In this document: piece after piece, positions 1,053 through 43,605 of the stretch | Position numbering within the stretch: position 1 is the stretch's first letter | Layout: every line of letters begins with the position of its first letter | Origin: Deltaproteobacteria bacterium | GTDB lineage: Bacteria > Desulfobacterota > Syntrophia > Syntrophales > UBA2210 | Length of the DNA: 45,382 nt | Assembly (NCBI GenBank): GCA_016933965.1 | Contig: JAFGTS010000018.1 | Location: 1-45,382, forward strand | Direction: 5' to 3' | Made by a program: the position numbers and the translations under genes | Notes under the pieces: model-generated | The model's input: only the letters and a program-made list of their open reading frames with translations | The model's database searches: none | Told to the model about the DNA's origin: nothing

Positions 1053-1823
1053 TCAGTAACCGATTGACAGTCTGTGCAGGATGTTCCTGACGACCGTCAT
1101 GGAGGGGGCCGTGCGGGGGATTTCTGTAAGGGGTGTTCCCGATATGTCCAGATTCCTGATATGCTCGTCCTCGGGAATCCATCCAAGCAACTCGACGGGG
1201 CTGTCGCGCAAGACTTCGGACACTTCCCTGTCGCTGCGTCCCCTGTTCAGAACCAGACCGACTCCCCGGGGACTCAGGGCACGGTTATCATGAATGAGGT
1301 GCCATATGGTCCTGGAAACGGCGATGCCCTTCGCCGAAAGGTCCGAAACGATCAGGAGATAGTCGACCCGTTCCATCACTCTCCTGTTTATCTGCTCCAC
1401 CCCTGCTTCTCCATCTATGACGACGATATCGAAGTTCTCCGCCAGGTCGGCGATGATATCCCTGAGCAACGCGTTCACTCTGCAGTAGCACCCGGCATCC
1501 TCCGGTCTCCCGATCGCGAGAAGCGCCGTATTGCTTCCTTCCGCCAATGCGTGAAATACCTCATAATCAAGTAATTCCGAGACGACCGACCTGTCGTCGC
1601 CGGCCCTTTCGCGGAGCCTGCCGACAATTTCCCGGCGTATATCATCAATGGTTTTCAGCACGGTCACCCCGAGAGACAGGGCCAGTCCCGATGCAGGGTC
1701 GGCGTCGATGGCAAGGATCCTTTTCCGCAATTCCCGCGACATTTCGGCCACCAGCAGCGCCGCCAGCGACGTCTTCCCGACACCGCCCTTGCCGCAAACC
1801 GCTATTGTCTTGATCTCGTTCAT
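1053..1823 (-). CDS. CooC-type metallocentre maturation ATPase
   Basis: A 256-residue MinD/NifH-superfamily ATPase. It has a deviant Walker A motif GKGGVGKTS (residues 11-19), the switch motif IDADP (39-43) and a VVIDGEAG Walker B-like segment near 134-141. It also has a GCYC motif giving Cys112 and Cys114, the CxC pair that in CooC of CO dehydrogenase maturation binds nickel at the dimer interface. The start was set at ATG 1823, preceded by GAGGAAAT; an upstream GTG at 1853 overlaps the stop of the preceding gene and lacks a ribosome site. It is the last gene of the operon. No CO dehydrogenase gene is nearby, so its client is probably one of the iron-sulfur enzymes encoded upstream (inference). 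It could also be a generic ParA-like ATPase, but the CxC makes the CooC subgroup the better call. Confidence 0.8.
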   Translation of the reverse strand: MNEIKTIAVCGKGGVGKTSLAALLVAEMSRELRKRILAIDADPASGLALSLGVTVLKTIDDIRREIVGRLRERAGDDRSVVSELLDYEVFHALAEGSNTALLAIGRPEDAGCYCRVNALLRDIIADLAENFDIVVIDGEAGVEQINRRVMERVDYLLIVSDLSAKGIAVSRTIWHLIHDNRALSPRGVGLVLNRGRSDREVSEVLRDSPVELLGWIPEDEHIRNLDISGTPLTEIPRTAPSMTVVRNILHRLSIGY

Positions 1824-1852
1824 GGCACATTTCCTCGCCCGGAGCGGTCGCA

Positions 1853-2626
1853 CTATCCGGTCCGGGCGGCCAGGACGGCCGCGCCCAGGGCCCCCACGAT
1901 CTGAGGATCGCAGGGCACCCGTTGCACCTGCAATCCGATCGCCTCCTGAAGGGCGGAGAACATACCCTCATTCTTCGCCACACCGCCGGTCATCGTGATG
2001 TCTTCCTCCGGATCGATCCCCCGTGCGAGGGATGCAATGCGATGCGCCATGGCACGGTGAAGACCGCTGACGATATCGGGGATGTCGCGCCCCGCGTTGA
2101 CCAGTGAGATGATCTCTGTCTCAGCGAATACGACGCATTGATTTGAGATACCAACGGGGTTCGACGATCGATACGCCGGTGTGCCCATCTCTTCAAAGTC
2201 GATGTCGAGTGCGTTCGCCATGATCTCAAGGAACCGTCCCGTTCCGGAGGCGCATTTATCGTTATAGACATAGCGCAGGATGTTCCCCTTGTCATCCATA
2301 CGCATGGCCTTGGCGTCCTGACCTCCCACGTCGATAACCATGCGCACCGAAGGAAGCAGCCATATGGCACCCGTCCCGTGGCAGAGGATTTCCGACTCCA
2401 CGTCATCGGCAAAGGGGATCCTGTTCCTGCCGTATCCCGTGCCGAAGCAGCGTTCCACCCGATGTCGCTCCAAACCCGCTTTTTCAAGGACCTTCCTCAT
2501 GACGTCGACGGCCGAATCCTCCGGTTGCGGTTTCGAGCGTATCACCGCTGACGCGGCGATGGTATCGGAGTCAAGTATGACGGCCTTGGCGGTGAGAGAA
2601 CCGATATCACATCCCGCGGTGATCAT
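1853..2626 (-). CDS. HgdC/BcrD-family ATPase activator, paralogue 2
   Basis: A 257-residue member of the ASKHA-fold activators of 2-hydroxyacyl-CoA dehydratases and class I benzoyl-CoA reductases. These couple ATP hydrolysis to injection of one low-potential electron into the partner enzyme. Visible motifs: phosphate-1 loop GCDIGSLTAKAV at the N-terminus, phosphate-2 VIDVGGQDAKAM, the first cluster cysteine in NDKCASGTGRFLE, the second in NQCVVFAETEI, and the adenosine-site TGGVAKN. Each subunit supplies two Cys to one [4Fe-4S] cluster bridging the dimer, and both are present. The ATG overlaps the stop of the upstream paralogue by four bases (ATGA), so translation is coupled. With paralogue 1 it may form a heterodimer as in BcrA/BcrD, rather than the homodimer of HgdC. 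Confidence 0.9.
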   Translation of the reverse strand: MITAGCDIGSLTAKAVILDSDTIAASAVIRSKPQPEDSAVDVMRKVLEKAGLERHRVERCFGTGYGRNRIPFADDVESEILCHGTGAIWLLPSVRMVIDVGGQDAKAMRMDDKGNILRYVYNDKCASGTGRFLEIMANALDIDFEEMGTPAYRSSNPVGISNQCVVFAETEIISLVNAGRDIPDIVSGLHRAMAHRIASLARGIDPEEDITMTGGVAKNEGMFSALQEAIGLQVQRVPCDPQIVGALGAAVLAARTG

Positions 2627-3408
2627 TGTGCACTCCTTGCGCTTTTCTGTGCCTCAACGGCGGCTCCCAGGGCACCGATGAGCTGGGGATCGATCCGGTG
2701 ACGCTTCATTCGTATTCCAAGCAGTCCCTCAAGGGCGGCCACAACAGCGGTATTTTTCGCCACGCCGCCCGACATGCATACCTCCCGCTCGACACCGACA
2801 CTATTGGCAAGTATGGCCACCCGGTTCGCCATTGCCTGGTTCACGGCGGCGGCGACATCCTCGATCGATGCCCCGGCATTCAGGTGATGAATGACCTCCG
2901 CCTGTGCCCACACCGTACAGGTTGATGCCAGCGACAGCGGCCGCCGTGACCGCGCCGACAGCGGTCCCAACTGATCGATCGGCAGTCCCAGGACATCGGC
3001 CATCACTTCCAGGAACCTTCCCGTTCCCGCGGCACACTTGTCGTTCGTGATGAACTTGACGATCCTGCCGTCACTGTCCATTTTCATTGCCTTGCAGTCC
3101 TGGCCGCCGATATCGATCACCGTTCTCACCGACGGGAGCACCCAGCGCGCCCCCGTTCCATGGCAGCTTATTTCCGAAACGGCCCTCTGTACGAAAGGTA
3201 TTCGGTCCCTTCCGTACCCCGTACCCACACAGTAACTGATGGAATCCTTCGACAGACCGGCAGTGCCGAGCGCCTCTTCCATGACGGCCAGTGCCGAGTC
3301 CTCAGGTCGCGCCCGTGATCTGATCATCGCCGCCCCGAGTATTTTTCGCTCATTCAGAATAACCGCCTTTGCCGTGAGTGACCCCACGTCACATCCCGCC
3401 ACGATCAT
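2623..3408 (-). CDS. HgdC/BcrD-family ATPase activator, paralogue 1
   Basis: A 261-residue activator with the same domain plan as its downstream neighbour. It has GCDVGSLTAKAV (phosphate-1), VIDIGGQDCKAM (phosphate-2), NDKCAAGTGRFLE and STCTVWAQAEV (the two [4Fe-4S] cysteines), and SGGVAKN. It differs at many surface positions and in the stretch after the first Cys (PLSARSRRPLSLAST against PAYRSSNPVGISN), so the pair is an old duplication, not a recent copy. The length matches HgdC (about 260) and not the longer BcrA (about 440). It overlaps the upstream BcrB-like gene by four bases. Two dissimilar activators plus three catalytic-type subunits resembles class I benzoyl-CoA reductase composition more than HgdABC; the substrate is not determined by sequence. 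Confidence 0.9.
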   Translation of the reverse strand: MIVAGCDVGSLTAKAVILNERKILGAAMIRSRARPEDSALAVMEEALGTAGLSKDSISYCVGTGYGRDRIPFVQRAVSEISCHGTGARWVLPSVRTVIDIGGQDCKAMKMDSDGRIVKFITNDKCAAGTGRFLEVMADVLGLPIDQLGPLSARSRRPLSLASTCTVWAQAEVIHHLNAGASIEDVAAAVNQAMANRVAILANSVGVEREVCMSGGVAKNTAVVAALEGLLGIRMKRHRIDPQLIGALGAAVEAQKSARSAQ

Positions 3409-4808
3409 ACGCCGATCCTCCGCAGGTGAATGAATTCTTCGATCCTGTCCGTTATGGCCTCCCAGGACTGTATCCGGTCGTCAAAGGCATCCGCGTACAG
3501 AACGAGCGCGGGAATACCCAGGCGCTCAAGATCGCGGGCCAGCAGCTTCACCATCCCCCAGGTGTTCCTGCACCCCATGGTACCGATATAGGCCACGAAG
3601 TCGGCTTTGAAAAGGCGCGCTGCACAAATGGTATCATCAAGCCACATGTGAGGGGCATCGTAGGGCCCCCTGATCTGTTTCACCATGGGCATCCGCGACA
3701 TCTGGCCGGCCAGGGAACCTATCATGTCATCAAGTGTCCCTGTTTCGATCCGGTATCCCTCTTCCTCGCGGCCGCGGGCGTAGCAGGCATCCTCCTGCCA
3801 AAAGGTAAAGAGCATGGACCCGAGATGGGTTATGTCGTGGTCATTCAGCCAGCTCCAGAAGCGCATGTCCGTCGTGTAATGATCGATATAACAGAAGAGC
3901 CCCCGTGCCCGTTCTCTTCCCGTGGTGGTGCCCGCGATCCCCCGTTTCGCGTTCTCACGTGCCCTTTTCACCATGGACCGCAGGAGTTCGGTGTACTCAG
4001 GGGTTCCTCCCATCATGAATTTTCCCCCGTAGAGCATCAGATCATAGATGCCGGGGGCGGGGGCGGGAACAAGTCTCTGGAGTTCCATGAGCTCGCAGGA
4101 GATCTCATCCTGTATACGGGTCTCCTGCAGGATATCGGACAGGACTGTTTCCTGAAGCGTCCGGCCCGTCTGTTCTTCGAGAAAGGATATGAGATGCCGG
4201 AAATCGCGGTGGTGATATGCGTTCGCCCGCTCATCAGCAAGTGTCGGCGGATAGTTCAACTGAAAGAACGGTACATCAAGGTACGCCCCGGCAAAGGCGA
4301 AGGAATTGGCATTGGTGTCACAGATACCCGGTGAATCGCAGACAATGAAATCGGGCCGCACGGCAAGGCCGGCAAGGACGGCCCCCAGGGCCCCCCTCTG
4401 AGCGGAACAGGATGTTTCCGTAAATCCGACCTCGCAGCAGTAATCAAGGTACTCGGCCGTTCCCCGCCTGAGGACGAACGTTCCCAGAACGGTGAGCGCT
4501 TCCAGGCACATCGGGACCACGTCAAAGGCATAGAGGATCGGTGTGGCGACGCAGAAAGATGTGAGGGCTATTCTTTTTCCCCGTTCTTTCGCTTCGATAC
4601 ACTGCCGCAGGTACCGGGCAAGAAGTTTCAGGAGAAGAACGCCCTCCCGCCCGCACCGCACCAGCGCATCGAGAACCTCTCTGAAATGGGGGACCAGGGA
4701 AATAAGAGCTCTGTATTCCTTTGCGGTTCCATCATCGCTTCCGGCAGCGTTCTCAAGGATGCTCCAGAGCATCCAGTCATAATTGTATTCCGTCGTTTCC
4801 TGTTTCAC
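3405..4808 (-). CDS. BcrB/HgdA-like catalytic subunit, copy 2
   Basis: A 467-residue protein of the benzoyl-CoA reductase / 2-hydroxyacyl-CoA dehydratase D-component family. Candidate iron-sulfur cysteines sit in conserved contexts: TETSCSAQRG, DFIVCDSPGICDTNAN and GTMGCRNTWG. It aligns over its whole length with the 476-residue copy upstream, about two-thirds identical by eye, beginning with (M/V)KQETxEYxYDW. That alignment and an AGGGAG site fix the start at GTG 4808; a longer frame to 4874 would run into the small upstream gene. Its own C-terminus overlaps the activator gene by four bases. Known relatives bind the acyl-CoA and a [4Fe-4S] or double-cubane cluster and receive electrons from the activator. 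Which of the two copies is catalytic, or whether they form a heteromer, cannot be told here. Confidence 0.85.
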   Translation of the reverse strand: MKQETTEYNYDWMLWSILENAAGSDDGTAKEYRALISLVPHFREVLDALVRCGREGVLLLKLLARYLRQCIEAKERGKRIALTSFCVATPILYAFDVVPMCLEALTVLGTFVLRRGTAEYLDYCCEVGFTETSCSAQRGALGAVLAGLAVRPDFIVCDSPGICDTNANSFAFAGAYLDVPFFQLNYPPTLADERANAYHHRDFRHLISFLEEQTGRTLQETVLSDILQETRIQDEISCELMELQRLVPAPAPGIYDLMLYGGKFMMGGTPEYTELLRSMVKRARENAKRGIAGTTTGRERARGLFCYIDHYTTDMRFWSWLNDHDITHLGSMLFTFWQEDACYARGREEEGYRIETGTLDDMIGSLAGQMSRMPMVKQIRGPYDAPHMWLDDTICAARLFKADFVAYIGTMGCRNTWGMVKLLARDLERLGIPALVLYADAFDDRIQSWEAITDRIEEFIHLRRIGV

Positions 4809-4816
4809 GCTTCTCC

Positions 4817-5047
4817 CTACAGGGTCATGCTGATCGCTGCGCCGTCCGTGATCCTCCGCACGTAGAGCCGGCATCGTTCCTTCAGAATCTGCAGGTCCGT
4901 TGTTCGTTCGATTTTTTTCAGGGAACCGAGGGCCTGTTCGTGGAACAGGGTCAACGCATCAATGGCCCGCTGCCGTTCCACGAGAACGCGGGAGGCGTCC
5001 AGTGCCATCCCCGTCAGGACTTCCAACGCTATAGTTTCCTTTTCCAT
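4817..5047 (-). CDS. Small helical protein between the two BcrB-like genes
   Basis: A 76-residue protein I do not recognise. It is charged and predicted almost all alpha-helical (for example SRVLVERQRAIDALTLFHEQ), with one Cys near the C-terminus, no signal peptide and no membrane helix. The start was placed at ATG 5047 after GAAGGGAAAGAA; an in-frame ATG at 5071 would add eight residues. Its stop lies only eight bases before the GTG of the next gene, whose ribosome site overlaps this stop, so it sits well inside the transcript and is probably translated. Its position between two homologous large subunits suggests an assembly or small accessory subunit; that is inference only. Confidence 0.6.
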   Translation of the reverse strand: MEKETIALEVLTGMALDASRVLVERQRAIDALTLFHEQALGSLKKIERTTDLQILKERCRLYVRRITDGAAISMTL

Positions 5048-5072
5048 ACCGTTCTTTCCCTTCAACCGCATG

Positions 5073-6503
5073 TTATCCGCTGCTTACCAGACCGGGTTCA
5101 CCGGACGTCAAGCCGCGGAGATGGAGAAACTCACCGATCCGATCCGTCACCGCTTCCCATGACTGGATCCGGTCGTCGAAGGCATCGGCATAGAGGATGA
5201 GGGTCGGTATTCCACGGCGCTCCAGATCACGGGCCAGGAGCTTCACCATCCCCCAGGTATTCCTGCATCCCATGGTCCCGATGTAGGCAACGAAATCGGC
5301 CTTCAGAAGGCGGGTGAACAGCATCGTGTCATCCAGCCACATGTGCGGCGCATCGTACGGTCCGCGTATGGATTTGACCATGGGCATCCGCGACATCTGG
5401 GCCGCCAGGGAATCGATCATGGCATCGACCGAATCGGTGCGGACGGCGTAGGCGGCCTCGGTCCGTCCAGCGGCATAGATGGCATCCTCCTGCCAGAAGG
5501 AACTGAGAATACATCCCAGGTGGGCTATTTCACGCGATTCCAGCCAGCGCCAGAAGCGCAGGTCCGTCGTGTAGTGGTCTATGTATGAGAAAAATCCCCG
5601 TACCCGCTCCCCGCCGGACCGTGAACCCGCAACGCCACGGGCAGCGTTCTCCCGCACCCGTTCGAGCATCAGTTCCAGAAGCTCGGTGAAATCACTGGTG
5701 CCGCTCATCAGAAAGGTCCCCGAATACAGAAAGAGATTAAATATGTTGGGAACGGGGCTCGGCGTGAGCCGCTGAAATTCCGTCAGTTCACAGATGAGCT
5801 CGTCCTGTTTCCGAACTTCCTCAAGAACCTCACGAAGCCGGTCGATATCGAGCGTCTTTTTCGTCTGTTCCTCGAGGAACGAGACAAGGCACCTGAAATC
5901 GGCCTGATGGTAGCGTCGCGCACGCTCATCGGCCAATGTCGGCGGGTGATTCAACTGGAAGAAAGGGATGTCGAGATAGGCCGACGCGAAGGCATAGGAA
6001 TTCGCATTGGTATCGCAAATGCCGGGAGAATCGCAGACGATGAAATCAGGCCGGACCCCCAGTCCCGCCAGATACGCACCCAGCGCCCCGCGCTGGGAGG
6101 AGCACGATGTCTCCGTAAAACCCACCTCGGAGCAATAATCGAGGAATTCACCGGTTCCCCGCTTGAAGATGAACGTCCCCAGGACGGTCATCGCCTCCAC
6201 GACGATGGGAACCACGTCAAAGGCATACAGAACCGGGGTGGAGAAACAGAAGGTGGTGAAGGCGACCTTTCTGCCTTCATCATGAGCCGTCAGGCACCGC
6301 TTCAGGTAACGGGCCATCAGTTTCATCAGACAGATACCCGCCTCACCCTGGCGTATTATCTCATCGAGGGCCTCCCTGAAGTGGGGGATCAGGGTGAGCA
6401 GCGATTCATATTCCTTCACGCTGCCGTCGTGGGTCACCGACGCATTCTCGATGATAGTCCATAATATCCAGTCGTACTGATATTCCTTTGTTTCCTGTTT
6501 CAT
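5073..6503 (-). CDS. BcrB/HgdA-like catalytic subunit, copy 1
   Basis: A 476-residue member of the same family as the 467-residue copy downstream. Cysteines in family-typical contexts are Cys124 and Cys134 (LDYCSEVGFTETSCSSQRG), Cys157 and Cys163 (VCDSPGICDTNAN) and Cys413 (GTMGCRNTWG), enough for cluster ligation. The ATG at 6503 follows GGGAAGGA. The protein is soluble and has no signal peptide. The two copies share even the unusual PHMWLDDT and YADAFDDRIQSWE segments, so they are paralogues by tandem duplication around the small gene at 4817. Expected role: acyl-CoA binding and cluster-bearing partner of the BcrC/HgdB-like subunit encoded just upstream. Alternative reading: one copy serves as a scaffold or as a second isoenzyme with different acyl specificity. 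Confidence 0.87.
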   Translation of the reverse strand: MKQETKEYQYDWILWTIIENASVTHDGSVKEYESLLTLIPHFREALDEIIRQGEAGICLMKLMARYLKRCLTAHDEGRKVAFTTFCFSTPVLYAFDVVPIVVEAMTVLGTFIFKRGTGEFLDYCSEVGFTETSCSSQRGALGAYLAGLGVRPDFIVCDSPGICDTNANSYAFASAYLDIPFFQLNHPPTLADERARRYHQADFRCLVSFLEEQTKKTLDIDRLREVLEEVRKQDELICELTEFQRLTPSPVPNIFNLFLYSGTFLMSGTSDFTELLELMLERVRENAARGVAGSRSGGERVRGFFSYIDHYTTDLRFWRWLESREIAHLGCILSSFWQEDAIYAAGRTEAAYAVRTDSVDAMIDSLAAQMSRMPMVKSIRGPYDAPHMWLDDTMLFTRLLKADFVAYIGTMGCRNTWGMVKLLARDLERRGIPTLILYADAFDDRIQSWEAVTDRIGEFLHLRGLTSGEPGLVSSG

Positions 6504-6580
6504 CGATCCTTCCCGGTGTCAGTACATCCCGTCGAGATCCACGACTGCTGTACGACACCCGTTTTCTACAATGACGGACG

Positions 6581-7717
6581 CTAACCCAGCCGCTCCATGA
6601 AAGCATCGATCCGCATCTTGAGCCGGCCCGTTTCGACAAGAGGGCCGTACTCACGTTCTATCCTCATGCAGGGAACCCCCTCCGCCTCGAGGTCACGCTC
6701 GAATATCCCGTTCTCAGAACCGTGAAGGTCGCAGAACCGGATATTCTGAAGGATGACCCCGTCGACCCGGGCCTCGCGAATCCGCCTTCGCAAAACCTGC
6801 AATCTGTCCTTATAATAGCCGAACATGCGGGGGCAATAGGAATGCTGCAGGTAGCGACGGGTCAGCGCTTTCAGCGGTTCATCACTCTCATCCACCAGGT
6901 CGGCGTAGGACCGGAAACCGAAACAGAGCGTATCCGCAACGATGAGACCTCCCGAATCTTCGATGACATCCATGAAACCGACATCATCGTTGACACTCCC
7001 AACCAGCATGAGCCGCTTCCTCCCCTCCGAAATATCCCGAGCTTCTCTTTCCAGGGAGTCCAGAGTTCCTTCAAGCAGCTCGCGGTATGAACCCCGGGGC
7101 ATGGCGGAACCCGCCACCAGCACAGCCAGTGCATCGCTTCCCGAGAGAAGGACTGTATCGCCCGTTCTCAGCCGGTCCATCCTGCAGAGCAGACGGCGAA
7201 TTCCGTTATAAAGCCCTATCGCTTCGGCAACGGCGTCATCGGTGATCGTCAGATCAAAATATTGTTCGAGGCTCTCCTTGAAGATCACCGTTTCCTCTTC
7301 AAACCAGGAGATGCTGTAATCGGTCACCTTGTGCGGCACGCCGAAGTAATGAAAATAGCCCGGCAGACTTCCCTGATAATCTTCACCCGCCTTTCTCCAG
7401 CATTCATCAAGCCTCCTCATCGAATCACATCCCGGGACAATAACGGCGCCGTCCAGGAATTCATACCGCCCCTCTCCCGCCAGTTGCAGTATACATTTCG
7501 GAAAACTGCATATCACGGGACCGAAGTACGTGTCGCCCACGGAAAGGGACGTTGTGCCGACACCACGGAACCGGAAGGGCAGCATGCCCGCCGCGTGAAT
7601 GATCTCTTCCGGAAGGTAGGTACAGGGAAAGCCGATCACCTTTCCACCCGATCCCTTCCATTTCTCGACAAAGGGATTGTTGAGGGTCCGGGCCATGGTC
7701 CTGAAAGTATCAATCAT
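6581..7717 (-). CDS. BcrC/HgdB-like subunit of the reductase/dehydratase
   Basis: A 378-residue protein of the 2-hydroxyglutaryl-CoA dehydratase D-component family. It begins with the family hallmark GFPCTYLPEEIIHAAG (residues about 29-44). Further cysteines lie in PVICSFPKC, VPGCDSMRRLDEC, YCPRMF and NIRFCDLHGSE; in HgdB and BcrC the equivalents of the first, the GCDS-type and the FCD-type cysteines hold the [4Fe-4S] or double-cubane cluster. The length fits BcrC (about 385). Its ATG overlaps the end of the preceding unknown gene by eight bases, so the helical proteins and the reductase are translationally coupled. With one BcrC-like and two BcrB-like subunits plus two activators, the operon encodes more components than any standard dehydratase set that I know. 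Confidence 0.88.
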   Translation of the reverse strand: MIDTFRTMARTLNNPFVEKWKGSGGKVIGFPCTYLPEEIIHAAGMLPFRFRGVGTTSLSVGDTYFGPVICSFPKCILQLAGEGRYEFLDGAVIVPGCDSMRRLDECWRKAGEDYQGSLPGYFHYFGVPHKVTDYSISWFEEETVIFKESLEQYFDLTITDDAVAEAIGLYNGIRRLLCRMDRLRTGDTVLLSGSDALAVLVAGSAMPRGSYRELLEGTLDSLEREARDISEGRKRLMLVGSVNDDVGFMDVIEDSGGLIVADTLCFGFRSYADLVDESDEPLKALTRRYLQHSYCPRMFGYYKDRLQVLRRRIREARVDGVILQNIRFCDLHGSENGIFERDLEAEGVPCMRIEREYGPLVETGRLKMRIDAFMERLG

Positions 7718-8999
7718 GAGGCATTCCCCTTTCCGCCATCAGCCGCGCCAGCCGGTCAAAAGCCTCATGATACTCTCGGTTTTCGTGTCCGCCGGCCTTT
7801 TCCAGTATGTCACAGAGCAGGTGGAGCAGTGGGGGGGCCAGCGGTGCCGCCAGGGGCTCCAGCAGTTCACGAAAGATCCACCCCAATGCCTTTCCCGCAT
7901 CCTCGTGGTCGAGGGAAGCGACAAGTCCGTCGGCGAATGACCGCGGAAGGTCGGGACAGACATCATGAACCCGGTTGATAAGCCGGATCCAGGTGTTCAG
8001 GTATTCGGCGATCTCGCCCGTGTCAATATCCGAAACGACCCGAGTCAGTGCTTCCGCCAGTTCTTCATCCTCGAACTCTTCGAGCATGCCGACCCGTTGT
8101 GTCATGCCCTGTAAGGCCGGATTGACCTCCGACGGCAGGTTCGCGATGAGAGCGGTTACCAGTTCAGGCTTTGACAGCAAGGCCTCACAACGGGCCCTGA
8201 TGAGGGAAGCCCTTTCCTGAGCGATGGCCGCCCGCGCCTTGCAGTATAATTCCGTATCGATATCTTCCACGGCATCTTTCAGGATATCCGTGCAGTATAA
8301 TTCAAGGAGCGGTCTTCCCCCCTTTCCCAGAAGGAGGCTTCCCGTGTGAAAGCGCCTGATGAGCTCACACACGGCGTTCAGGCATTCAGCCGCCTGCCGC
8401 CCGTCAACTTTCCTGAGCAGGGAAAGACCCAGATCGGCCAGAAGGTCCGGACCCACCTTGTTCTCAACGGGCCTGAGCAGTTCGCGACCTGCCTGCATGG
8501 AAATGTTCGCCGTTTCGGGAAAAAGGGAAAGAATGCTTGCCACCTTTGCCGGATACTTCCAGAGGACGTCGTTGAGGGCGGCGACGGTCTCGGTCGCCTC
8601 ACTGCGGGACCGTTCCACGGCCTCGCGGATCTCACCGAAGTCGGCATGTTCTATGAGCTCTCGTATGCATTCCCGCCGTACCCTCACCCGTTCCGTTCGT
8701 TCTTCATCCGTTTCAGTGTTGTAGCGGCCGGCGCAGGTGGAAAGGAACGCACCTACTTCGGCAGGAAGGGTTTCCCCTCCTGTCGGTGATGAACGTTTTT
8801 TCCGCTGATACCGTTCCAGGCGGCGGTCGACAAAAGAAGCGAGGGCGCGTCCCGACCGGCCGCCCTTCCTCGACCACTGTCCGATGAAACCCCTGACGAC
8901 GGACACAACCGTCATCCTGAACCCCGATGTGTTCAGAACACCCAGGATGACCCGGGCCGCCTCGTCGTGCAGATCTTCGTGCTTCTCTTCCCTTTCCAT
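7710..8999 (-). CDS. Unknown helical-repeat protein, large member of a three-gene family
   Basis: A 429-residue protein of unknown function. The start was taken at ATG 8999 because AGGAGAGG precedes it; an in-frame ATG at 9020 would add seven residues. It is predicted all-helical, with no membrane span, signal peptide or known catalytic motif. A segment at residues about 140-209, with the pattern LWxxxxxVxxxLxLxPxxxN then GPDLLxxLxxSLLxxxD, matches the core of the two smaller proteins encoded just upstream. A C-terminal part with PDLPRSFADGLVASLDHED resembles the C-terminal half of the 235-residue member (PGLVGKCVAGVFESIDQEE). The N-terminal 130 residues are rich in Arg and Glu and unmatched. 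It overlaps the BcrC-like gene. Possible role: scaffold or assembly factor for the neighbouring multisubunit enzyme (inference). Confidence 0.7.
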   Translation of the reverse strand: MEREEKHEDLHDEAARVILGVLNTSGFRMTVVSVVRGFIGQWSRKGGRSGRALASFVDRRLERYQRKKRSSPTGGETLPAEVGAFLSTCAGRYNTETDEERTERVRVRRECIRELIEHADFGEIREAVERSRSEATETVAALNDVLWKYPAKVASILSLFPETANISMQAGRELLRPVENKVGPDLLADLGLSLLRKVDGRQAAECLNAVCELIRRFHTGSLLLGKGGRPLLELYCTDILKDAVEDIDTELYCKARAAIAQERASLIRARCEALLSKPELVTALIANLPSEVNPALQGMTQRVGMLEEFEDEELAEALTRVVSDIDTGEIAEYLNTWIRLINRVHDVCPDLPRSFADGLVASLDHEDAGKALGWIFRELLEPLAAPLAPPLLHLLCDILEKAGGHENREYHEAFDRLARLMAERGMPHD

Positions 9000-9055
9000 G
9001 CACCTCTCCTGCTTCGCCATGTGCGGGAATTCCGGATGCCACGGTGGAACCGCGA

Positions 9056-9763
9056 CTATGAACGCCTTCGGAAACGGGTCATGATCCGTCCCCGGATGAT
9101 ACCAAAGACCATGGACAGAACGGCCGGCTTTTGATCAAGAAAGGCATTCACCAGTACCTGCAGGGCCGAACGCATTTCCTCTTGATCGATACTTTCGAAT
9201 ACGCCTGCGACACATTTTCCAACCAGCCCGGGGTCCCTCTCGTGCAGGGCATTAATGTAGCGTGCCGCGACGGTGATGCCCCCGCCGATCAGCCGGGGTC
9301 CCATATCCACGGCAACGTCACCCCCTATTTTTTTCAGTTCCGGCAGGGCCTTCAGAAATACAGCATAATGCTCTGCCAGGGCCCCGCGTATCTCCGGTGA
9401 AGCCTCCCAGAGGTCCCGCAGTATCGCCCCGTAGGTGGAGACGCATTCCCGAAGCACATCAGTATCGATCTCCTCACCGATGCTCCGGAGAAACTCTTTC
9501 AACAGCGCGGGAGGAAATTTCTCGTGTATCTGTTTTCCCAGTTCCGCCGCCGCGCCGGCGCCGCAATTGACGAGTTTCGGCAGCGCCGCGAGCACGTTGA
9601 GCATCACTTCGGTGTCCTGCCACAGAAAGGTTCGTACTATCTCCCGTCCCCCCTCGGAGTTCATGGTGTTCAGTTGATTCCTGACGATATCCTTCAGGAA
9701 GGGAGTGTCGATCAGTTCCTGCAGGACGCCGCCGCTTTTCCTCTCCTCCACGGTGGTGTTCAT
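9056..9763 (-). CDS. Unknown helical protein, middle member of the three-gene family
   Basis: A 235-residue protein I do not recognise. Residues 40-104 carry the shared core: REIVRTFLWQDTEV, then LAALPKLVN, then HEKFPPALLKEFLRSIGEEID. The 145-residue neighbour has almost the same pattern (RGLVRTMLWRDAEV, LGALPSILN, REKFPPELLRSFMRSLAEDID). A second helical region (about 117-235) resembles the C-terminal part of the 429-residue member. It ends in a strongly basic tail (GRIMTRFRRRS), possibly for contact with nucleic acid, membrane or an acidic partner. ATG 9763 overlaps the previous stop (ATGA) and is preceded by GGAGGAAC. It has no membrane segment. Function unknown; co-expression with the reductase is the only clue. 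Confidence 0.7.
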   Translation of the reverse strand: MNTTVEERKSGGVLQELIDTPFLKDIVRNQLNTMNSEGGREIVRTFLWQDTEVMLNVLAALPKLVNCGAGAAAELGKQIHEKFPPALLKEFLRSIGEEIDTDVLRECVSTYGAILRDLWEASPEIRGALAEHYAVFLKALPELKKIGGDVAVDMGPRLIGGGITVAARYINALHERDPGLVGKCVAGVFESIDQEEMRSALQVLVNAFLDQKPAVLSMVFGIIRGRIMTRFRRRS

Positions 9764-10197
9764 GACTGTCGTTCCTCCTCTCCCGATGCGCTGCCGGAAC
9801 CCTGTTCCCGGAGCACTTCCATGACGACGGGCAGCAACTCTTCGATGAGGACCCGCGTGTTGCCCTCGGCCCGCGACAGTGATTCCCGGTCGATGTCCTC
9901 CGCCAGTGATCTCATGAAACTCCGCAGCAGTTCCGGCGGAAACTTTTCCCGAACCTGTATGAGCATCTCATCATATCCCTTGATAAAAGCGTTCAGGATG
10001 GACGGCAACGCTCCGAGCACCCCGAGAAACACCTCGGCGTCCCGCCAGAGCATTGTCCGCACCAGGCCGCGTGCCGATTCCGGATCGATGTTTGCGAGCA
10101 GTATCCTGAGGTTCTCCTTGACGTTCGGTTTTTCGAGCAACCGGCCGATAACCCGGTCCATGGCATCTATAACCCCTCTGTTCCCGCTTTCCGTCAT
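9760..10197 (-). CDS. Unknown helical protein, small member of the three-gene family
   Basis: A 145-residue protein of unknown function, made essentially of the family core (residues 43-107) with a short helical N-terminus and a low-complexity, Ser/Glu-rich C-terminal tail (SGSASGEEERQS). Core signature: RGLVRTMLWRDAEV, GALPSILN, EKFPPELLRSFMRSLAEDID. The similarity to the 235-residue neighbour is high enough to see without computation, so the genes arose by duplication. ATG 10197 has AAGGAG seven bases upstream, and only 11 bases separate it from the stop of the acyl-CoA dehydrogenase gene. No cysteine or other metal ligand is conserved with its paralogues, which argues against a catalytic redox role. 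Confidence 0.7.
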   Translation of the reverse strand: MTESGNRGVIDAMDRVIGRLLEKPNVKENLRILLANIDPESARGLVRTMLWRDAEVFLGVLGALPSILNAFIKGYDEMLIQVREKFPPELLRSFMRSLAEDIDRESLSRAEGNTRVLIEELLPVVMEVLREQGSGSASGEEERQS

Positions 10198-10208
10198 GAC
10201 AATTCTCC

Positions 10209-11483
10209 TTACAGGGTGGCACAGTTGAAGAAGTACCGCGCCGCTTCCATCTGGCAGAGCTGTTTCCCGCCCATCCAGAGTTGTATGATCTTGATGTCCC
10301 GCCAGTGCTTTTCTATGTCCCAGTCCCTGTCGGGACCGTACGCACCGAGGACGTCCATGGCAATACCGAAATTCTCGACCGCCCTGTCGGAAACGAAATC
10401 CTTGATGTTCCTGATCCGACCGACGGTCCGCTCCGATATGATGGGATCACCGTACGGCTTGTTCCGCCTGTCTCCCATCATGGCTGCCTCATATCCCAGG
10501 ATCCGGCAGATATCGATATCGCCGGCAATGCGACCGATGACGGCGGCCACGGCTTCATGCTCCTTCAGGGGTTGATTGTTATAGGTACGCTCCGAAACGA
10601 ACCCGGAGAGACGTTCATAGAGGTTCATCATGGCACCCGTCAGAAAGGCGACACTCGCGACCTGTCCCAGGGAGATAAGCTGATAAAACGCCTCGGCGTC
10701 CGTTCCCGGCCCGTGCGCCCGGTACCAGGCAGGGACCCTCACATCTTCAAACCAGATATCGCCGTTCTTGTCCGCCGCCATGCCCGCCTTTTCATAAGGC
10801 CCCCCCTGGGTGACCCCCGGGGTGTCGGCGGGAACGAAAATGAAGGCAAAATCCCGTGGATCATCGGAACCGGGCCGGGTGGTACAGGGAACGCCGAAAA
10901 GAATCGAGACACCTCCCGTATTGGTAGGCCACAGCTTATGGCCGTTGATGACCCATTCATCTCCGTCACGTCGTGCCGTTGTCCTGATGGTTTTTCCCCG
11001 TATCAGCCCCAGGTTCTCTATGTCAGCCCCACCCTGGGGTTCGGTCATCGCATTGGCCGCGAAAACGGCCTTATCCGTATTGCAGAACAGTGGAGCGAAC
11101 TCTGCGGCAAGACGGCTGTTCTCATAAGGATCAATCAGGATCGTAAAGAAAGGCCAGAAGGTGACGCCGAAGGCCACAGCTATTCCCGTGTCGGCACGTC
11201 CGATCTCCTCACTGATGGCGTAGGCGGCCCTGAAGAGATAATCCGACCTTCCCAGTCCCCAGCCGCCGAATTCCGGAGGAAACATGGCCTTTTGAAAGCC
11301 AAGCCTTCCCATGAGCGAATCAAAGACCGGCTCGATCAGCGCATGCTCTTTCCAGTCTTCATCATACTCGCGCCGGTGGGGCATTACCTCCTTTTCAACC
11401 CAGTTCCTCAGCACCCGTCTGAGGTGCCGGTCCATGGGCGATATGTACTCTTCCGGTTTTGAAAACTCTTCGAAGTGCTTCAT
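10209..11483 (-). CDS. Acyl-CoA dehydrogenase-family flavoprotein with atypical active site
   Basis: A 424-residue protein with the whole acyl-CoA dehydrogenase fold. The flavin/acyl-CoA loop MTEPQGGAD is at 146-154 (family TEPxxGSD), NGHKLWPTN at 180-188, and the C-terminal signature EKHWRDIKIIQLWMGG at 391-406. In medium-chain enzymes the C-terminal motif reads YEGT, with Glu as catalytic base; here the aligned residues are WMGG, so the base is absent at this site. Some ring-acyl-CoA dehydrogenases are reported to use another acidic residue; Asp98 in GRADTG is one candidate position, unproven. The start was set at ATG 11483 after GGGGGG; a longer open frame to 11738 lies inside the neighbouring gene. 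Likely substrate: a branched or cyclic acyl-CoA tied to the downstream reductase (inference). Confidence 0.87.
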   Translation of the reverse strand: MKHFEEFSKPEEYISPMDRHLRRVLRNWVEKEVMPHRREYDEDWKEHALIEPVFDSLMGRLGFQKAMFPPEFGGWGLGRSDYLFRAAYAISEEIGRADTGIAVAFGVTFWPFFTILIDPYENSRLAAEFAPLFCNTDKAVFAANAMTEPQGGADIENLGLIRGKTIRTTARRDGDEWVINGHKLWPTNTGGVSILFGVPCTTRPGSDDPRDFAFIFVPADTPGVTQGGPYEKAGMAADKNGDIWFEDVRVPAWYRAHGPGTDAEAFYQLISLGQVASVAFLTGAMMNLYERLSGFVSERTYNNQPLKEHEAVAAVIGRIAGDIDICRILGYEAAMMGDRRNKPYGDPIISERTVGRIRNIKDFVSDRAVENFGIAMDVLGAYGPDRDWDIEKHWRDIKIIQLWMGGKQLCQMEAARYFFNCATL

Positions 11484-11485
11484 GG

Positions 11486-12721
11486 TCACACCCCCCGGCT
11501 TCCGTAAAAGAACCTGGCCGCCTGCATCTTTACGGGAACGTCTGCGCCGACGCCGGCAACGATCGACTGTATGGTCTTGATATCGCGCCAGTGTTTTTCC
11601 GCGTGCCATTCCCTCGCGTACCCCGCCGACCCCATGAGTTCCATGCCGCGGTTCATCGCCCTCAGGGCGGCTGACTGTACCCGGGATCCGATTATCTGAC
11701 CATAGGTGAACAATTTTTCGAGACGGTCCCCCTCCCACTGCTCCGGCGCAGCCATGATGCCCGTCAGCTCCGAGAGGAGTATCCGGCCAAGGAGTATCTC
11801 CATCGCCACATCGGCAAGAACAGAGGCGCAGAGCTGATCATTCTTCATGGGGGTCCCCCCTTTGATGACCCTGTTTTCTGACCAGTCGTTCAGGATCTCA
11901 AAAAAATCCATGGCAGCGCCCAGGCTGACCGCTCCAAGGTACGCATTCAGAAACGTGTACGTTTCCTCAAGTATTCCTTCCCGATCCAGGATGAATCCCT
12001 CAGGTACCGATATTCGTTCCAGAGTTATCTCGGCGTTCCGGCAGGCGCTCAGGCCGGTAGTCCTCACCTCCGGTCCCCGTTGGACCCCCTCACCATCGAT
12101 GATGACCGCCCAGACCGCCCGTCCCTCTTTATCGGCGGCCGCGATACCGAAGGAATCCGCTATCGCACCGCAGGCACAGGGTCTCAGGTTCCGCCCGGTA
12201 AGAGAGGTCGCATTCCCGGCAGTTTCAAGAACTGCGGTCATGGCCCGGCCGCCGAACAGCGGCGTTTCCACGTCGGAGAAGCCGGCTGCCGGAAGCACCA
12301 GGGCCGTGGTTTGAAGGCCCTCCCCACCGTAACGGGGGGCAAAAGAGGAGAGCGCCCTCTCGCTCTGAGCAGGCACACGGGTCAGAAGTGCAAGGAACAC
12401 ATAGGTCACGGCCAGCATGAATCCCTCTGCAGCATCGGCCTTCCCCGTCTCGAGCAGGACCGATGTCACTCGGGGACAGTCCGTGGTACCGTCCCAGCCG
12501 AACCCACCACGGTTCTCGGGAAGCGTCAGCCGCTGGAGGCCGATGTCAAGCTCGAGATTCTTTCGTTTCTCCCGGAACAGTGTTTCGTAATGCTCCCGGT
12601 ATTCCTGCCGGCGGGATATGACCTCCCTCTCGGCCCACTGCCGCACCACGTTCAGGACGCCTTTCGCGGCATCATCGGCGGCATCCTCTCGAAAAAAAAG
12701 CCTGTCAAGGTCCGTCCCCAT
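11486..12721 (-). CDS. Divergent acyl-CoA dehydrogenase-family paralogue
   Basis: A 411-residue protein related to the downstream flavoprotein, most clearly at the C-terminus: YAREWHAEKHWRDIKTIQ here against DRDWDIEKHWRDIKIIQ there. The FAD/substrate loop is degenerate, with LVLPAAGFSD (141-150) in place of TEPxxGSD. The catalytic YEGT site reads VAGV (388-391), again without the Glu base. The SD-like AGGGAGGGAG before ATG 12721 is strong. Paired acyl-CoA dehydrogenase subunits forming alpha2beta2 heteromers, with only one complete FAD site per pair, are known from steroid side-chain degradation; adjacent genes with one intact and one decayed loop fit that model (inference). It could instead be an acyl-CoA-binding non-enzyme. 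First gene after tetR, at an 80-bp distance. Confidence 0.8.
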   Translation of the reverse strand: MGTDLDRLFFREDAADDAAKGVLNVVRQWAEREVISRRQEYREHYETLFREKRKNLELDIGLQRLTLPENRGGFGWDGTTDCPRVTSVLLETGKADAAEGFMLAVTYVFLALLTRVPAQSERALSSFAPRYGGEGLQTTALVLPAAGFSDVETPLFGGRAMTAVLETAGNATSLTGRNLRPCACGAIADSFGIAAADKEGRAVWAVIIDGEGVQRGPEVRTTGLSACRNAEITLERISVPEGFILDREGILEETYTFLNAYLGAVSLGAAMDFFEILNDWSENRVIKGGTPMKNDQLCASVLADVAMEILLGRILLSELTGIMAAPEQWEGDRLEKLFTYGQIIGSRVQSAALRAMNRGMELMGSAGYAREWHAEKHWRDIKTIQSIVAGVGADVPVKMQAARFFYGSRGV

Positions 12722-12801
12722 GCTCCCTCCCTGTTTTCCGCTGAACTCCCCCTTCCGGCATCGGTTGTTTCGCCGCGAAGCCCATCTTCACCGTTTCCGG
12801 C

Positions 12802-13440
12802 TTATTCCGTAAACGCCCGTCCCTTTTCCGTGAGGTAGGTCTCGAACATGGCGAGGATCAGCCGTATCAGGTTTTCGATGATCTCATCCCGCTCCATGCG
12901 GTTTTCCACCAGGTAGCCGTGAATGAGTTGGAGGCACATCCCGAGAGCGGCATGACCGAACAGGATCGGGCTGATGCCCTCAATGACCCCCTCATTGATC
13001 CAGTCCTGAATATCTTCGGCCACATCCTCCGCAAACCCGGAAAAGTAATTCCATACATTGATGTTCAATTCCTTGTCGACACCGAAGCTTCCCCGGAGAA
13101 GCATCAGGAGCTGCTGGGGGTTGGCGTCCACGTAATCGAAGATCGCCGTCAGCGTTTCCCTGATGATGGTGATCCGCTCCTCCCTGTCCCATATATCAAC
13201 GGGTTTTCTCAGCATCTTGATGTGGATCCTGAGGTTCTTCAATCCTTCGATGGTTATCTGCTCAAAGAGGTCTCGCTTGTCCACGAAGTAGTTATAGAAC
13301 GTCCCCGCCGACATGCCGACGGCCCTCACAATGTCCATGACCTGGGTGTCGTGATATCCGTGCTGGCTGAACAGCTCGCAGGCCGCACCGACGATCTTTT
13401 CTCTTGTCTCCTGTCTTTTTTCCTCAGCGCTCTTTGTCAT
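12802..13440 (-). CDS. TetR-family transcriptional repressor
   Basis: A 212-residue regulator. The N-terminal TetR domain (about residues 12-60) reads EKIVGAACELFSQHGYHDT, then VMDIVRAVGMSAGTFYNYFVDKRDLF, the typical helix-turn-helix with the FYNYF recognition helix. The C-terminal two-thirds is a helical ligand and dimer domain without a recognisable ligand signature. It is the first gene of the operon, read in the same direction as all downstream genes, and its start is preceded by GGGGGAGATGGG. A consensus promoter and a perfect inverted repeat lie just upstream, so it most likely represses itself and the whole operon until an inducer binds, probably an acyl-CoA as in FadR/PaaR-type TetR proteins (inference). 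Confidence 0.93.
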   Translation of the reverse strand: MTKSAEEKRQETREKIVGAACELFSQHGYHDTQVMDIVRAVGMSAGTFYNYFVDKRDLFEQITIEGLKNLRIHIKMLRKPVDIWDREERITIIRETLTAIFDYVDANPQQLLMLLRGSFGVDKELNINVWNYFSGFAEDVAEDIQDWINEGVIEGISPILFGHAALGMCLQLIHGYLVENRMERDEIIENLIRLILAMFETYLTEKGRAFTE

Positions 13441-13466
13441 GACCCATCTCCCCCGCGCAATCCAGA

Positions 13467-13484
13467 GTAATGAGATTTCATTAC
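13467..13484. promoter_or_regulatory. Predicted TetR operator, perfect inverted repeat
   Basis: GTAATGA, four spacer bases, then TCATTAC: a perfect 7-bp inverted repeat (18 bp in all). It lies 26 bp upstream of the tetR start and begins 7-8 bp after the predicted -10 box, so it overlaps the expected transcription start. This is a classic position for a repressor that blocks its own promoter. Confidence 0.72.
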
Positions 13485-13491
13485 ATTGTGG

Positions 13492-13520
13492 AATCTAACG
13501 TAGAATGCTTTCTCTGTCAA
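13492..13520 (-). promoter_or_regulatory. Sigma70-type promoter of the tetR-reductase operon
   Basis: On the minus strand, TTGACA (13520-13515), a 17-bp spacer, then TAGATT (13497-13492). The -35 box is a perfect consensus, the -10 matches 4 of 6, and the spacing is optimal. The predicted start falls at about 13485, at the edge of the operator, leaving a leader of about 45 bases. Confidence 0.75.
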
Positions 13521-13741: not shown

Positions 13742-14902
13742 TCAGTCGGCCTGTTTTCTCAGAAAGGCCGGTGTTTCATAATCCGACATTTCGTCATCGT
13801 TGATCATTCCCATTTTCACGACGACCTGCTTATCGCTGCCCCGGTCCTTCCTGTTCCGGATGAAGGTGGGTGTCGACAGGTCTTCCCTCCTCGTCATACC
13901 GGCGGGTGACGCGATGGGGATATCTTCCTTCCGCTTCTGTTCGTGCATGCCGAAACCGGTTGCGATCACGGTGATGCGCAGTGAATCCCCCATCGATTCA
14001 TCGATAACGGTCCCGAAAATGATGTTGGCGTCCTCATGCGCTTCCGACTGGACCAGCGATGATGCTTCGTTCACCTCGTAAAGGGTCATGCCGGGACCTC
14101 CGGTCACGCTGAGAAGAACGCCCCGCGCGCCCTGAATGGAATTATCCTCGAGCAGCGGAGATGATATGGCCATCTGGGCCGCTTCCACCGCCCGGTTTTC
14201 GCCGCTGGCGATACCCGTTCCCATGAGGGCGAGCCCCATACCGGACATGATGTTCTTCACGTCGGCGAAATCGAGATTTATGAGCCCCGGGACCATAATG
14301 AGATCGGAGATCCCCTGTACTCCGTGATAGAGGATGTCGTCAGCCTTTTTGAAGGCATCGAGAAGTGACATCTCTCGTCCGCTGACGCTGAGAAGGCGCT
14401 GATTGGGAATGACGATGAGCGTATCGACCACCTGTTTCAGGACAAGAAGTCCTTCTTCCGCCTGCTGTTCCCTGCGCTTTCCCTCAAATTGAAAAGGTTT
14501 TGTCACCACGGCGACGGTGAGCGCACCCAGTTCCCGCGCTATCTCCGCGACAACCGGCGCGCCGCCCGTTCCCGTTCCTCCTCCAAGGCCGGCGGTGATA
14601 AAGACCATGTCGGCCCCGTTGAGGACCCTTCTGATCTCTTCCGTCGATTCCACCGCCGCTTCCCGTCCAATGACGGGATCCGACCCGGCCCCCAGTCCCT
14701 TGGTGACCTCAGCGCCGAGCTGGACCTTGATCGGCGCCTTGGACACCTGCAGTGACTGTGCGTCTGTATTGGCAGCAATGAAATCGACACCGGCAAGGCT
14801 ATAGGAGATCATCATGTTGACGGCATTGCCGCCGCCTCCCCCGATACCGAGAACCTTGATCTTGGCGTTGTTCTCCCTGCCGCCTTCCACTAATTCAAAC
14901 AT
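13742..14902 (-). CDS. ftsZ: Cell division GTPase FtsZ
   Basis: A 386-residue tubulin homologue that polymerises into the Z-ring. Visible motifs: nucleotide-binding [13 protein letters not shown] near the N-terminus, the tubulin signature [13 protein letters not shown], the synergy region with [11 protein letters not shown], and a C-terminal peptide [12 protein letters not shown] that binds FtsA. The start was placed at ATG 14902, preceded by GAGGGAGGG; a TTG two codons upstream is possible but less likely. A variable acidic/basic linker separates the GTPase core from the tail. It is the last gene of the dcw cluster, 14 bp after ftsA. Confidence 0.98.
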
Positions 14903-14916
14903 GAGCAACCCTCCCT

Positions 14917-16146
14917 CTAAAAAAAGTCGTCAAACCACCTTTTTGCCCTTTGCATGACATTGTTGAACACCTTTTTCCTGCCGCTGGTGATGACCGCCGC
15001 CCCGTGCCGGCTTTCAGTACCGTGGATGACCAGGCCGACAGCCGTCGCATAGAGCGGATTTTCGACAATATCTGTTATTCCTCCCACACCGGTGGGACAC
15101 CCCTTGCGGACCGGGGTGTTGAATATCTGTTCCGCCAGTTCGGTGGCTCCCTGCAGGTTTGCTGTTCCTCCGGTCATTACCACACCGGCACCGAGAAGAT
15201 CGTCATATCCCGATTTGACGATCTCCCGCTGCGCCAGTCCAAGGATTTCTTCCAGGCGCGGCTCTATGATCTCGCCGAGCACCTGTCGCGATACTCTTCG
15301 CGGTCCCCTGCCCCCGACACTGGGCACTTCGATCATCTCTTCCTGTGGAATCATCGGTATGAAGGCACATCCGTACTGTATCTTTATCTTTTCCGCTTCG
15401 ACGGCGGGTGTCCTGAGTCCCACGGCAATGTCGTTCGTGATATAGTTTCCGCCCAGGGAAAGAACCGCCGTGTGCTGGATGCTTCCTTCGGCGTAGACGG
15501 CGATATCCGTCGTTCCGCCGCCGATATCGATCAACGCCACCCCCAGCTCCATCTCGTCCTGGCTCAAAACCGCCCTGGCCGAGGCGATGGGTTCCAGAAT
15601 GATGTCATTCACATCAATGCCGACGCGGTTGACTGACTTGATGATGTTCTGGAGAGAGGTAATAGAGGCGATCACCACATGAACCTTCGCCTCCAGGCGC
15701 ACTCCCGACATGCCGATCGGTTCCCTGATCCCGTCCTGATCATCGACAATGTAGTACTGCGGAAGGACGTGAATGATCTGTTTATCCTGGGGTATCGCGA
15801 TCGCCGTCGCCGCGTCGGTGGCCCTCCTCACGTCGGCCGGCTCCACCTCTCCTCCCTTGACCGCAACGATACCGAGGCTGTTCAGCCCGCGAATATGGCC
15901 GCCGGCTATACCGGTATAGACCGATTTTATTTCATAGCCCGACATGAGTTCTGCTTCTTCCACGGCACGCTTGATCGAATCCACGGTACTGTCGATATTG
16001 ACCACGACCCCCTTGCGCAAACCCTTGGAAGGATGGGTCCCGATTCCCACGATATCGATACCCGAATCGGTGATCTCTCCCACGATCGCACAGGTCTTCG
16101 TCGTTCCCATGTCCAGGCCGACGACTATGTTTTCCCTTCGTGCCAT
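14917..16146 (-). CDS. ftsA: Cell division protein FtsA
   Basis: A 409-residue actin-like ATPase that tethers FtsZ to the membrane and recruits late divisome proteins. It has the phosphate-1 loop [15 protein letters not shown] at the N-terminus, [13 protein letters not shown] (phosphate 2), [12 protein letters not shown] (adenosine site), and a C-terminal amphipathic helix ([15 protein letters not shown]) for membrane attachment. Length is typical. It lies between ftsQ and ftsZ with very short gaps, so all three should share one mRNA. Confidence 0.98.
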
Positions 16147-16163
16147 TCCCGGTGAAACCTTCC

Positions 16164-22957: not shown

Positions 22958-22967
22958 AGCCCGCCCC

Positions 22968-24047: not shown

Positions 24048-24083
24048 CGCTCGTTCCTTCCCCTTTTTCCATGCATGGACATG

Positions 24084-24149
24084 ACACTATAAATTTTTGA
24101 ATTGATAGCACATTATATAGTGTATTGCAATAGGTTAATACACTATATA
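24084..24149. repeat. AT-rich inverted repeat and ACACTATA copies in murF-mraY gap
   Basis: A perfect 13-bp inverted repeat, TATATAGTGTATT (24114-24126) and AATACACTATATA (24137-24149), is separated by 10 bp. The octamer ACACTATA occurs in both arms (24140-24147, and inverted at 24116-24123) and once more at 24084-24091. There is no T-tract, so a terminator is unlikely; the symmetry and repetition suggest a protein-binding region. The island is far more AT-rich than its surroundings. Confidence 0.75.
24112..24140 (-). promoter_or_regulatory. Possible internal promoter for mraY and downstream dcw genes
   Basis: On the minus strand a perfect -10 box TATAAT (24117-24112) is preceded, with 17-bp spacing, by a weak -35 TATTAA (24140-24135). 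Transcription would start near 24105, giving a leader of about 58 bases before the mraY GTG. The inverted repeat at 24114-24149 covers both boxes. Confidence 0.4.
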
Positions 24150-24212
24150 TGGTGTTTTTCAGGGAATTTATCCCCTTTTTGTTCCTTCTCCCACCTGCCC
24201 GGACGATTTGTT

Positions 24213-25640: not shown

Positions 25641-25642
25641 CG

Positions 25643-27166: not shown

Positions 27167-27171
27167 GATCC

Positions 27172-29444: not shown

Positions 29445-29447
29445 GCT

Positions 29448-30839: not shown

Positions 30840-30844
30840 GATCC

Positions 30845-30870
30845 CCCACAATATTCCACTATTTACCACT
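30845..30870 (-). promoter_or_regulatory. mraZ: Three MraZ-type direct-repeat boxes
   Basis: GTGGT, GTGGA and GTGGG start at 30869, 30859 and 30849 (minus strand), exactly 10 bp apart, each separated by a 5-bp AT-rich spacer. This matches the known architecture of MraZ sites (GTGG/TGGG-type pentamers on one helix face). They lie just after the predicted start of transcription, and the last box overlaps the ribosome site. Confidence 0.8.
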
Positions 30871-30879
30871 TTTTTTCGA

Positions 30880-30908: not shown

Positions 30909-30941
30909 GGAAAATTTGCCCTTTTCCTGGGCCACAACCTT

Positions 30942-43120: not shown

Positions 43121-43132
43121 GATGAGAGAACA

Positions 43133-43594: not shown

Positions 43595-43605
43595 GGGGTA
43601 GGGTC

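Follow-up and report, generated by a model that had tools for sequence, protein, structure and literature searches.

A conserved operon in syntroph-like bacteria and spirochaetes that appears to encode a distinct subfamily of ATP-driven double-cubane reductases

What reaction is carried out by an operon that joins subunits of the benzoyl-CoA reductase/2-hydroxyacyl-CoA dehydratase (BCR/HAD) family with acyl-CoA dehydrogenase-like proteins, helical proteins and a CooC-type ATPase? The operon lies at 1053–13440, on the minus strand, of contig JAFGTS010000018.1 from a Deltaproteobacteria bacterium (GCA_016933965.1). This contig (C18) was analysed over its whole length of 45,382 nucleotides, which we call the window, and belongs to a 2.85-Mb genome in 55 contigs. 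We found that the operon is real and conserved and apparently undescribed, and that its reductase is related to, but distinct from, the anaerobic ring-opening enzymes. We favour, with a probability of roughly 0.55, a two-electron reductase that is driven by ATP, carries a double cubane and forms a subfamily of its own, a reading predicted from sequence comparison.

All thirteen same-strand genes proposed in a first-pass annotation of the sequence were found. From the first gene to the last they are:

12802–13440, minus strand: TetR (PF00440, E = 2e-16), first gene of the operon
11486–12721, minus strand: ACAD1, a degenerate acyl-CoA-dehydrogenase-fold subunit whose middle domain has no recognised match
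10209–11483, minus strand: ACAD2, an acyl-CoA-dehydrogenase-fold subunit with FAD-domain motifs and an ATG at 11483
9760–10197, minus strand: hel145, a small, all-helical, family-less paralogue of hel235
9056–9763, minus strand: hel235, all-helical and family-less
7710–9020, minus strand: hel436, a helical member of the conserved core, distantly paralogous to hel145 and hel235
6581–7717, minus strand: D1, BzdN-like (PF06050, E = 5e-79)
5073–6503, minus strand: D2, a BzdO/HadB-like active-site subunit (PF06050, E = 2e-46)
4817–5071, minus strand: a small protein between D2 and D3, whose place next to the D genes is conserved in many relatives
3405–4808, minus strand: D3, of D2 type (PF06050, E = 5e-44; 68% identity to D2), with a GTG start at 4808
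2623–3408, minus strand: act1, an ATPase activator of BcrA/D–HgdC type (PF01869, E = 1e-55)
1853–2626, minus strand: act2, a second ATPase activator (PF01869, E = 8e-57)
1053–1853, minus strand: CooC, a CooC-type P-loop ATPase (best solved match CooC1, E = 2e-18), whose true start may be an internal ATG near 1823

These matches, to PF06050 for the three D proteins, PF01869 for the activases, PF00440 for TetR and CooC1 for CooC, agree with the families assigned earlier. The two acyl-CoA dehydrogenase-like proteins are also as described: ACAD2 matches every acyl-CoA dehydrogenase domain and ACAD1 is a degenerate relative. From TetR to CooC the intergenic gaps are 80, 2, 11, −4, 35, −8, 77, 1, 8, −4, −4 and −1 bp. 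The statement that many genes overlap by 4–8 bp is thus correct for four of the twelve junctions, and ‘many’ slightly overstates it.

The type of enzyme was judged from the cluster ligands of the D proteins. In the BzdNO structure, BzdN binds an [8Fe-9S] double cubane through Cys36, 73, 100, 263, 293 and 327, and BzdO binds the active-site [4Fe-4S] cluster through Cys95, 128 and 380 (PMC11971306). In alignments, all six BzdN ligand positions are cysteines in the window D1 (C32, C70, C97, C265, C295 and C329) and in 42/42 core relatives. The same positions read P-C-C-A-C-C in HadC and Q-C-C-F-S-C in MbdN, of 3-methylbenzoyl-CoA reductase. BzdN residues Arg53, Arg267 and His330 are kept in the window D1 as well, and Arg290 is replaced by His. 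D1 is predicted from this ligand set to carry an [8Fe-9S] double cubane.

The active-site cysteines of D2 and D3 are similarly constant: C134 and C163, which align directly to BzdO C95 and C128, are present in 62/62 sequences, and C413, placed through DCCP, in all 60 with sequence at that point. The D2 glutamate E103, which sits at the family Glu of the HadB alignment, is kept in every sequence with a residue there. It is probably the counterpart of the catalytic Glu65 of BzdO, a match that is only inferred because the BzdO alignment begins downstream of that position. Both activase-cluster cysteines are conserved in act1 (39/39) and act2 (41/41). Among solved structures, D1 matched BzdN best (E = 6e-51) and D2 and D3 matched HadB (E = 3e-14), while the best relatives of act2 were HadI (E = 6e-61) and MbdQ. 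The predicted cofactors are arranged as in a double-cubane reductase and not as in a dehydratase, while the residues around the active site differ. The original proposal had been a ‘reductase or dehydratase’; the six-cysteine signature of D1 favours its first half and disfavours its second.

D1 falls outside the characterised clades, whereas a firm place inside one was to have refuted the earlier proposal. In a tree of D1-type proteins, core D1 sequences formed one branch (support 100/99) apart from BzdN, HadC, MbdN, DCCP and YjiM, whose own long branches leave their mutual order unsure. No reductase gene reached the cut-off of a named-enzyme NCBIfam model, and the activases passed the general activase model only. 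D1 scored 132 bits against the bzdN model (cut-off 454), 119 against bcrC (421) and 136 against HadC (700); its best-scoring named model was DCCP, at 165 of the 350 bits needed. Scores with the HadB model were 48 (D2) and 35 (D3) against a cut-off of 750, and the bzdQ model gave 175–214 bits against 380. The bzdO model had no match above its cut-off across 60 genomes.

We then asked how far the operon is conserved. Clear D2 orthologues (52–72% identity, >560 bits) were found in five of the 60 genomes, namely the window genome, G001, G004 (which has two such loci), G031 and G059, and hel436 has exactly this distribution. The remaining HGD-D proteins of the 60 genomes scored <113 bits against D2. 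Scanning named genomes with the D2/D3 alignment turned up 48 loci, of which several are truncated at the end of a contig and a few come from genomes already bearing a G handle. The carriers are Smithella, Syntrophaceae, other Deltaproteobacteria, Desulfatibacillum, many Spirochaetota, one contig labelled Desulfohalobiaceae and one labelled Bacillota. Families were counted over 49 stretches, that is, these loci plus L015, which is the same contig as L036. The counts were D2/D3 in 48 stretches, D1 in 46, activases in 46, hel436 in 44, CooC in 36, a protein with an acetyl-CoA-synthase domain in 35, the ACADs in 23 and hel145/hel235 in 18.

The core order is hel436, D1, D2 (often followed by the small protein and D3), act1, act2, the acetyl-CoA-synthase-domain protein and CooC, and it is held across Deltaproteobacteria-type and Spirochaetota contigs. 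The scattering in close relatives that would have refuted the proposal is therefore not seen, the core set being kept together, and since an identical gene order returns in dozens of contigs the arrangement is not due to chance. The operon is nevertheless modular, because G001 keeps its ACADs and hel145/hel235 at a separate locus (L072) beside another reductase. Its genomic place is not fixed either: by eye, the G001 operon adjoins histidine-biosynthesis genes, whereas ftsZ lies upstream in the window. Hints at a substrate from flanking genes were inconsistent, with acyl-CoA ligases, carotenoid-synthesis-like membrane proteins and a thiolase each seen in single loci. We found no prior description of the operon in the open-licence PubMed Central (PMC) literature, although it may be described elsewhere, and the main text of the genome paper for one carrier, Smithella M82 (L032), mentions no benzoyl-CoA or 2-hydroxyglutaryl genes.

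Many loci have a second HGD-D module after CooC, made up of D1’, D2’, an Fe-S protein of ~436 aa and one activase (for example L018:15130–19901, L044, L047, L060 and L062); 18 of the 19 D1’ sequences compared have the six-cysteine set. The window genome (G000) has three more HGD-D sets, at C24:26000–38000 and C55:22000–36000 (L070, L071). Their D1-type subunits have six cysteines too, and one set adjoins, by eye, a phytoene-desaturase-like oxidoreductase and a nitronate-monooxygenase-like gene.

The flavoprotein genes vary around this core. The canonical catalytic Glu (position 376 of medium-chain acyl-CoA dehydrogenase, MCAD) is a Met in ACAD2: all 21 of the operon-type members, the window copy among them, have it (motif LWMGGKQ), and the four more distant homologues compared keep the Glu. 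ACAD1 has a hydrophobic residue there, and a Gly occupies the alternative Glu position known from isovaleryl-CoA dehydrogenase, which was placed by hand. Neither ACAD therefore has a canonical base at either position. The pair may be an altered heteromer, may use another base or may serve to transfer electrons. The ACAD pair is present in 21 of the 48 loci and a GMC oxidoreductase, with a conserved His-Pro motif near its C terminus, in 16; none has both, and 11, most of them cut short, have neither (Fisher p ~6e-6, ignoring kinship among loci). As they never share a locus, the ACAD-pair and GMC modules look like alternatives around a common core. The lack of the canonical Glu and the use of GMC in other loci make it doubtful that the reductase is coupled to flavin acyl-CoA chemistry, as had been proposed.

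The separate G001 locus (L072:537–9416, contig C90) has a further reductase set followed by ACAD2, hel145, hel235, ACAD1 and a second ACAD2, and both of its ACAD2 copies retain the catalytic Glu. A small protein that follows the reductase set there resembles a sterol-carrier protein by eye, a likeness that no Pfam or NCBIfam model backs.

The CooC gene has a frequent partner in relatives. A P-loop and a Cys-X-Cys motif are kept in 37/37 CooC sequences, and the latter aligns with the CYC of CooC1. In the CooC family this motif binds nickel. Relatives usually carry, between act2 and CooC, a gene of ~240 codons for the acetyl-CoA-synthase-domain protein (CdhC domain PF03598, E = 2e-13). It is absent from the window operon, and the window genome has one copy on another contig (C37:47864–48577). 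The protein aligns with the middle domain only of solved acetyl-CoA synthases and is without most of the A-cluster domain, and its C-terminal tail has an invariant C-X2-C-X5-C. The same pair of genes also adjoins the second reductase module (L082, L083) and a more distant one (L019), so its role seems to extend to a broader set of these enzymes. One Syntrophaceae locus (L055:11407–21401) has three reductase modules in a row around a single such pair.

The three helical proteins match one another, in agreement with the paralogy noted earlier, and none has a Pfam or NCBIfam match. The hel436 model (predicted local distance difference test, pLDDT, 82) has ~20 helices. Its best VIA-align match in the PDB had Z 6.0 over 101 residues at a root-mean-square deviation of 10.5, and Foldseek gave no match under E 0.001; matches this weak do not establish a new fold for the modelled protein. 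The AlphaFold2 model of hel235 is all-helical and of low confidence (pLDDT 67). Family searches with the small protein at 4817–5071 gave no informative match.

How might these parts work together? By analogy with the family, a dimer of act1 and act2 would use ATP hydrolysis to charge the D1 double cubane with electrons, whose donor is probably ferredoxin. From this store the electrons would pass to the [4Fe-4S] cluster in D2 or D3, where the activated substrate would be reduced. We can only guess that the substrate is a hydrophobic acyl-CoA beyond the reach of ordinary flavoproteins. The flavoprotein module (ACAD1/ACAD2 here, GMC in relatives) might then act on that substrate too, in an adjacent step or by transferring electrons, the helical proteins could be scaffolds or substrate carriers, and CooC with the acetyl-CoA-synthase-domain protein might load or service a metal centre. 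Several observations weigh against this reading. BzdO Tyr97, a thioester contact, is replaced by Ser, Ala or Gly in D2/D3 and His131 by an invariant Asn, so that CoA-thioester chemistry is not assured for D2. The operon has no gene for a CoA ligase, hydratase or thiolase. Finally, the carriers appear to be strict anaerobes, to which a stoichiometric demand for ATP is a heavy cost, and class I benzoyl-CoA reductases have been described from facultative anaerobes, owing to that cost. An ATP-dependent class I-type reductase has been reported in naphthalene-degrading sulfate reducers.

Two alternatives keep the D proteins within known chemistry. They could form a radical 2-hydroxyacyl-CoA dehydratase of the HadBC/HgdAB kind, with one-electron priming by the activases and ATP needed only catalytically. 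Such enzymes share the PF06050 subunits and PF01869 activase, and HadB (for D2/D3) and HadI (for act2) are the best solved matches. However, HadC has only four of the six double-cubane cysteines that D1 and its relatives retain; HadBC and HgdAB work with a single HadI or HgdC, while the operon has tandem, unlike activases nearer to BcrA/D or BzdP/Q; none of the accessory proteins occurs in those systems; and the HadB/HadC models gave 35–136 bits against cut-offs of 750/700. We set this reading aside as unlikely on the six-cysteine D1. A reductase operon of the ordinary class I type, for benzoyl-CoA (or tetrahydronaphthoyl-CoA), would explain that signature, which is identical in BzdN, the best solved match of D1. 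BzdNOPQ likewise has one double-cubane and one [4Fe-4S] active-site subunit with two activase subunits (PMC11971306). The window differs in that D2 lacks Tyr97 and His131, D1 belongs to a separate group, the active-site subunit is present in two copies, and helical proteins, CooC, a flavoprotein module and, in relatives, the acetyl-CoA-synthase-domain protein are added. Given also the bzdN and bcrC scores far under curated cut-offs, no bzdO match above its cut-off in the 60 genomes and no ring-cleavage genes in the operon, a simple benzoate or naphthoate operon is unlikely and we regard an ordinary class I system as highly improbable. The first-pass view of an ATP-driven BCR/HAD-family system with extra components, and not a simple benzoate operon, thus stands. 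DCCP and YjiM also have a six-cysteine double-cubane subunit, but DCCP pairs two identical subunits, each with a double cubane, whereas D2 and D3 have three ligands only.

There are two further alternatives. In one, CooC and the acetyl-CoA-synthase-domain protein would supply a metal centre to the double-cubane reductase or work with it, putting nickel or another heterometal into the reductase or a partner for chemistry unlike that of benzoyl-CoA reductase. The invariant Cys-X-Cys of 37/37 CooC sequences, the presence of the partner in 35/49 loci with its invariant cysteines and its retention elsewhere in the window genome, and the changed active-site surround of D2 all speak for it. The combination of a CXC-motif CooC with a CdhC-domain (PF03598) partner also recalls carbon monoxide dehydrogenase/acetyl-CoA synthase. 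Here, however, the partner is tied to HGD-D reductase genes and not to those of carbon monoxide dehydrogenase/acetyl-CoA synthase, and it covers the middle domain only, and CooC-like ATPases can serve other metal sites; we consider this account doubtful. Reduction of membrane-lipid esters, as by the plasmalogen synthase PlsA and related ester reductases, was also weighed. PlsA is in the same wider family of ATPase and HGD-D proteins, helical accessory proteins could bind lipids, a Desulfatibacillum species is reported to make ether lipids, and a Desulfatibacillum contig (L046) has the core. But PlsA is a single large fusion that includes DUF2229. The D and activase genes are separate here, as in benzoyl-CoA reductase, and a search for DUF2229 gave matches in four control genomes and none in the window genome. 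A plasmalogen-type ester reductase was rejected on this absence, and reduction of membrane-lipid esters seems very unlikely.

The genes around the operon were named by reading their sequences. Directly upstream, on the same strand, lies a cell-wall and division cluster (13742–32386) with ftsZ (13742–14908), ftsA, mur genes and an mraZ-like gene. A SelB-like selenocysteine elongation factor and, after it, an FdhD-like gene (32376–35227) suggest a selenoprotein formate dehydrogenase. At the contig ends are a truncated minus-strand open reading frame with repeated PAS-type sensor domains (1–1050) and a prepilin-peptidase-like gene with several pilin-like genes (42344–45382), also cut. TetR genes occur in the corresponding region of many relatives. 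The idea that the operon is TetR-controlled from one promoter/operator was not confirmed: promoter-like sites are present at 13584–13492, with an 80-bp gap downstream of the TetR gene, but the region as a whole has no excess of them (6 vs 6.4 in shuffled sequence), and an operator search near the operon start gave only one weak, imperfect 12-nt palindrome.

BCR/HAD-family enzymes catalyse reductions that are among the lowest in potential found in biology, and only a few of their reactions have been assigned. Because class I reductases have been described from facultative anaerobes on account of their ATP cost, such a reductase family in syntroph-like bacteria and spirochaetes is unexpected. 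That organisms with hardly any ATP to spare for stoichiometric use keep a separate subfamily so deeply conserved would imply a reaction of value, so far unrecognised, in the anaerobic turnover of carbon. The link of the reductase to CooC and an acetyl-CoA-synthase domain, the glutamate-less ACAD pair and its interchange with GMC all provide testable predictions. If a nickel-dependent role were true, ATP-driven iron-sulfur chemistry and nickel chemistry would be joined in one system.

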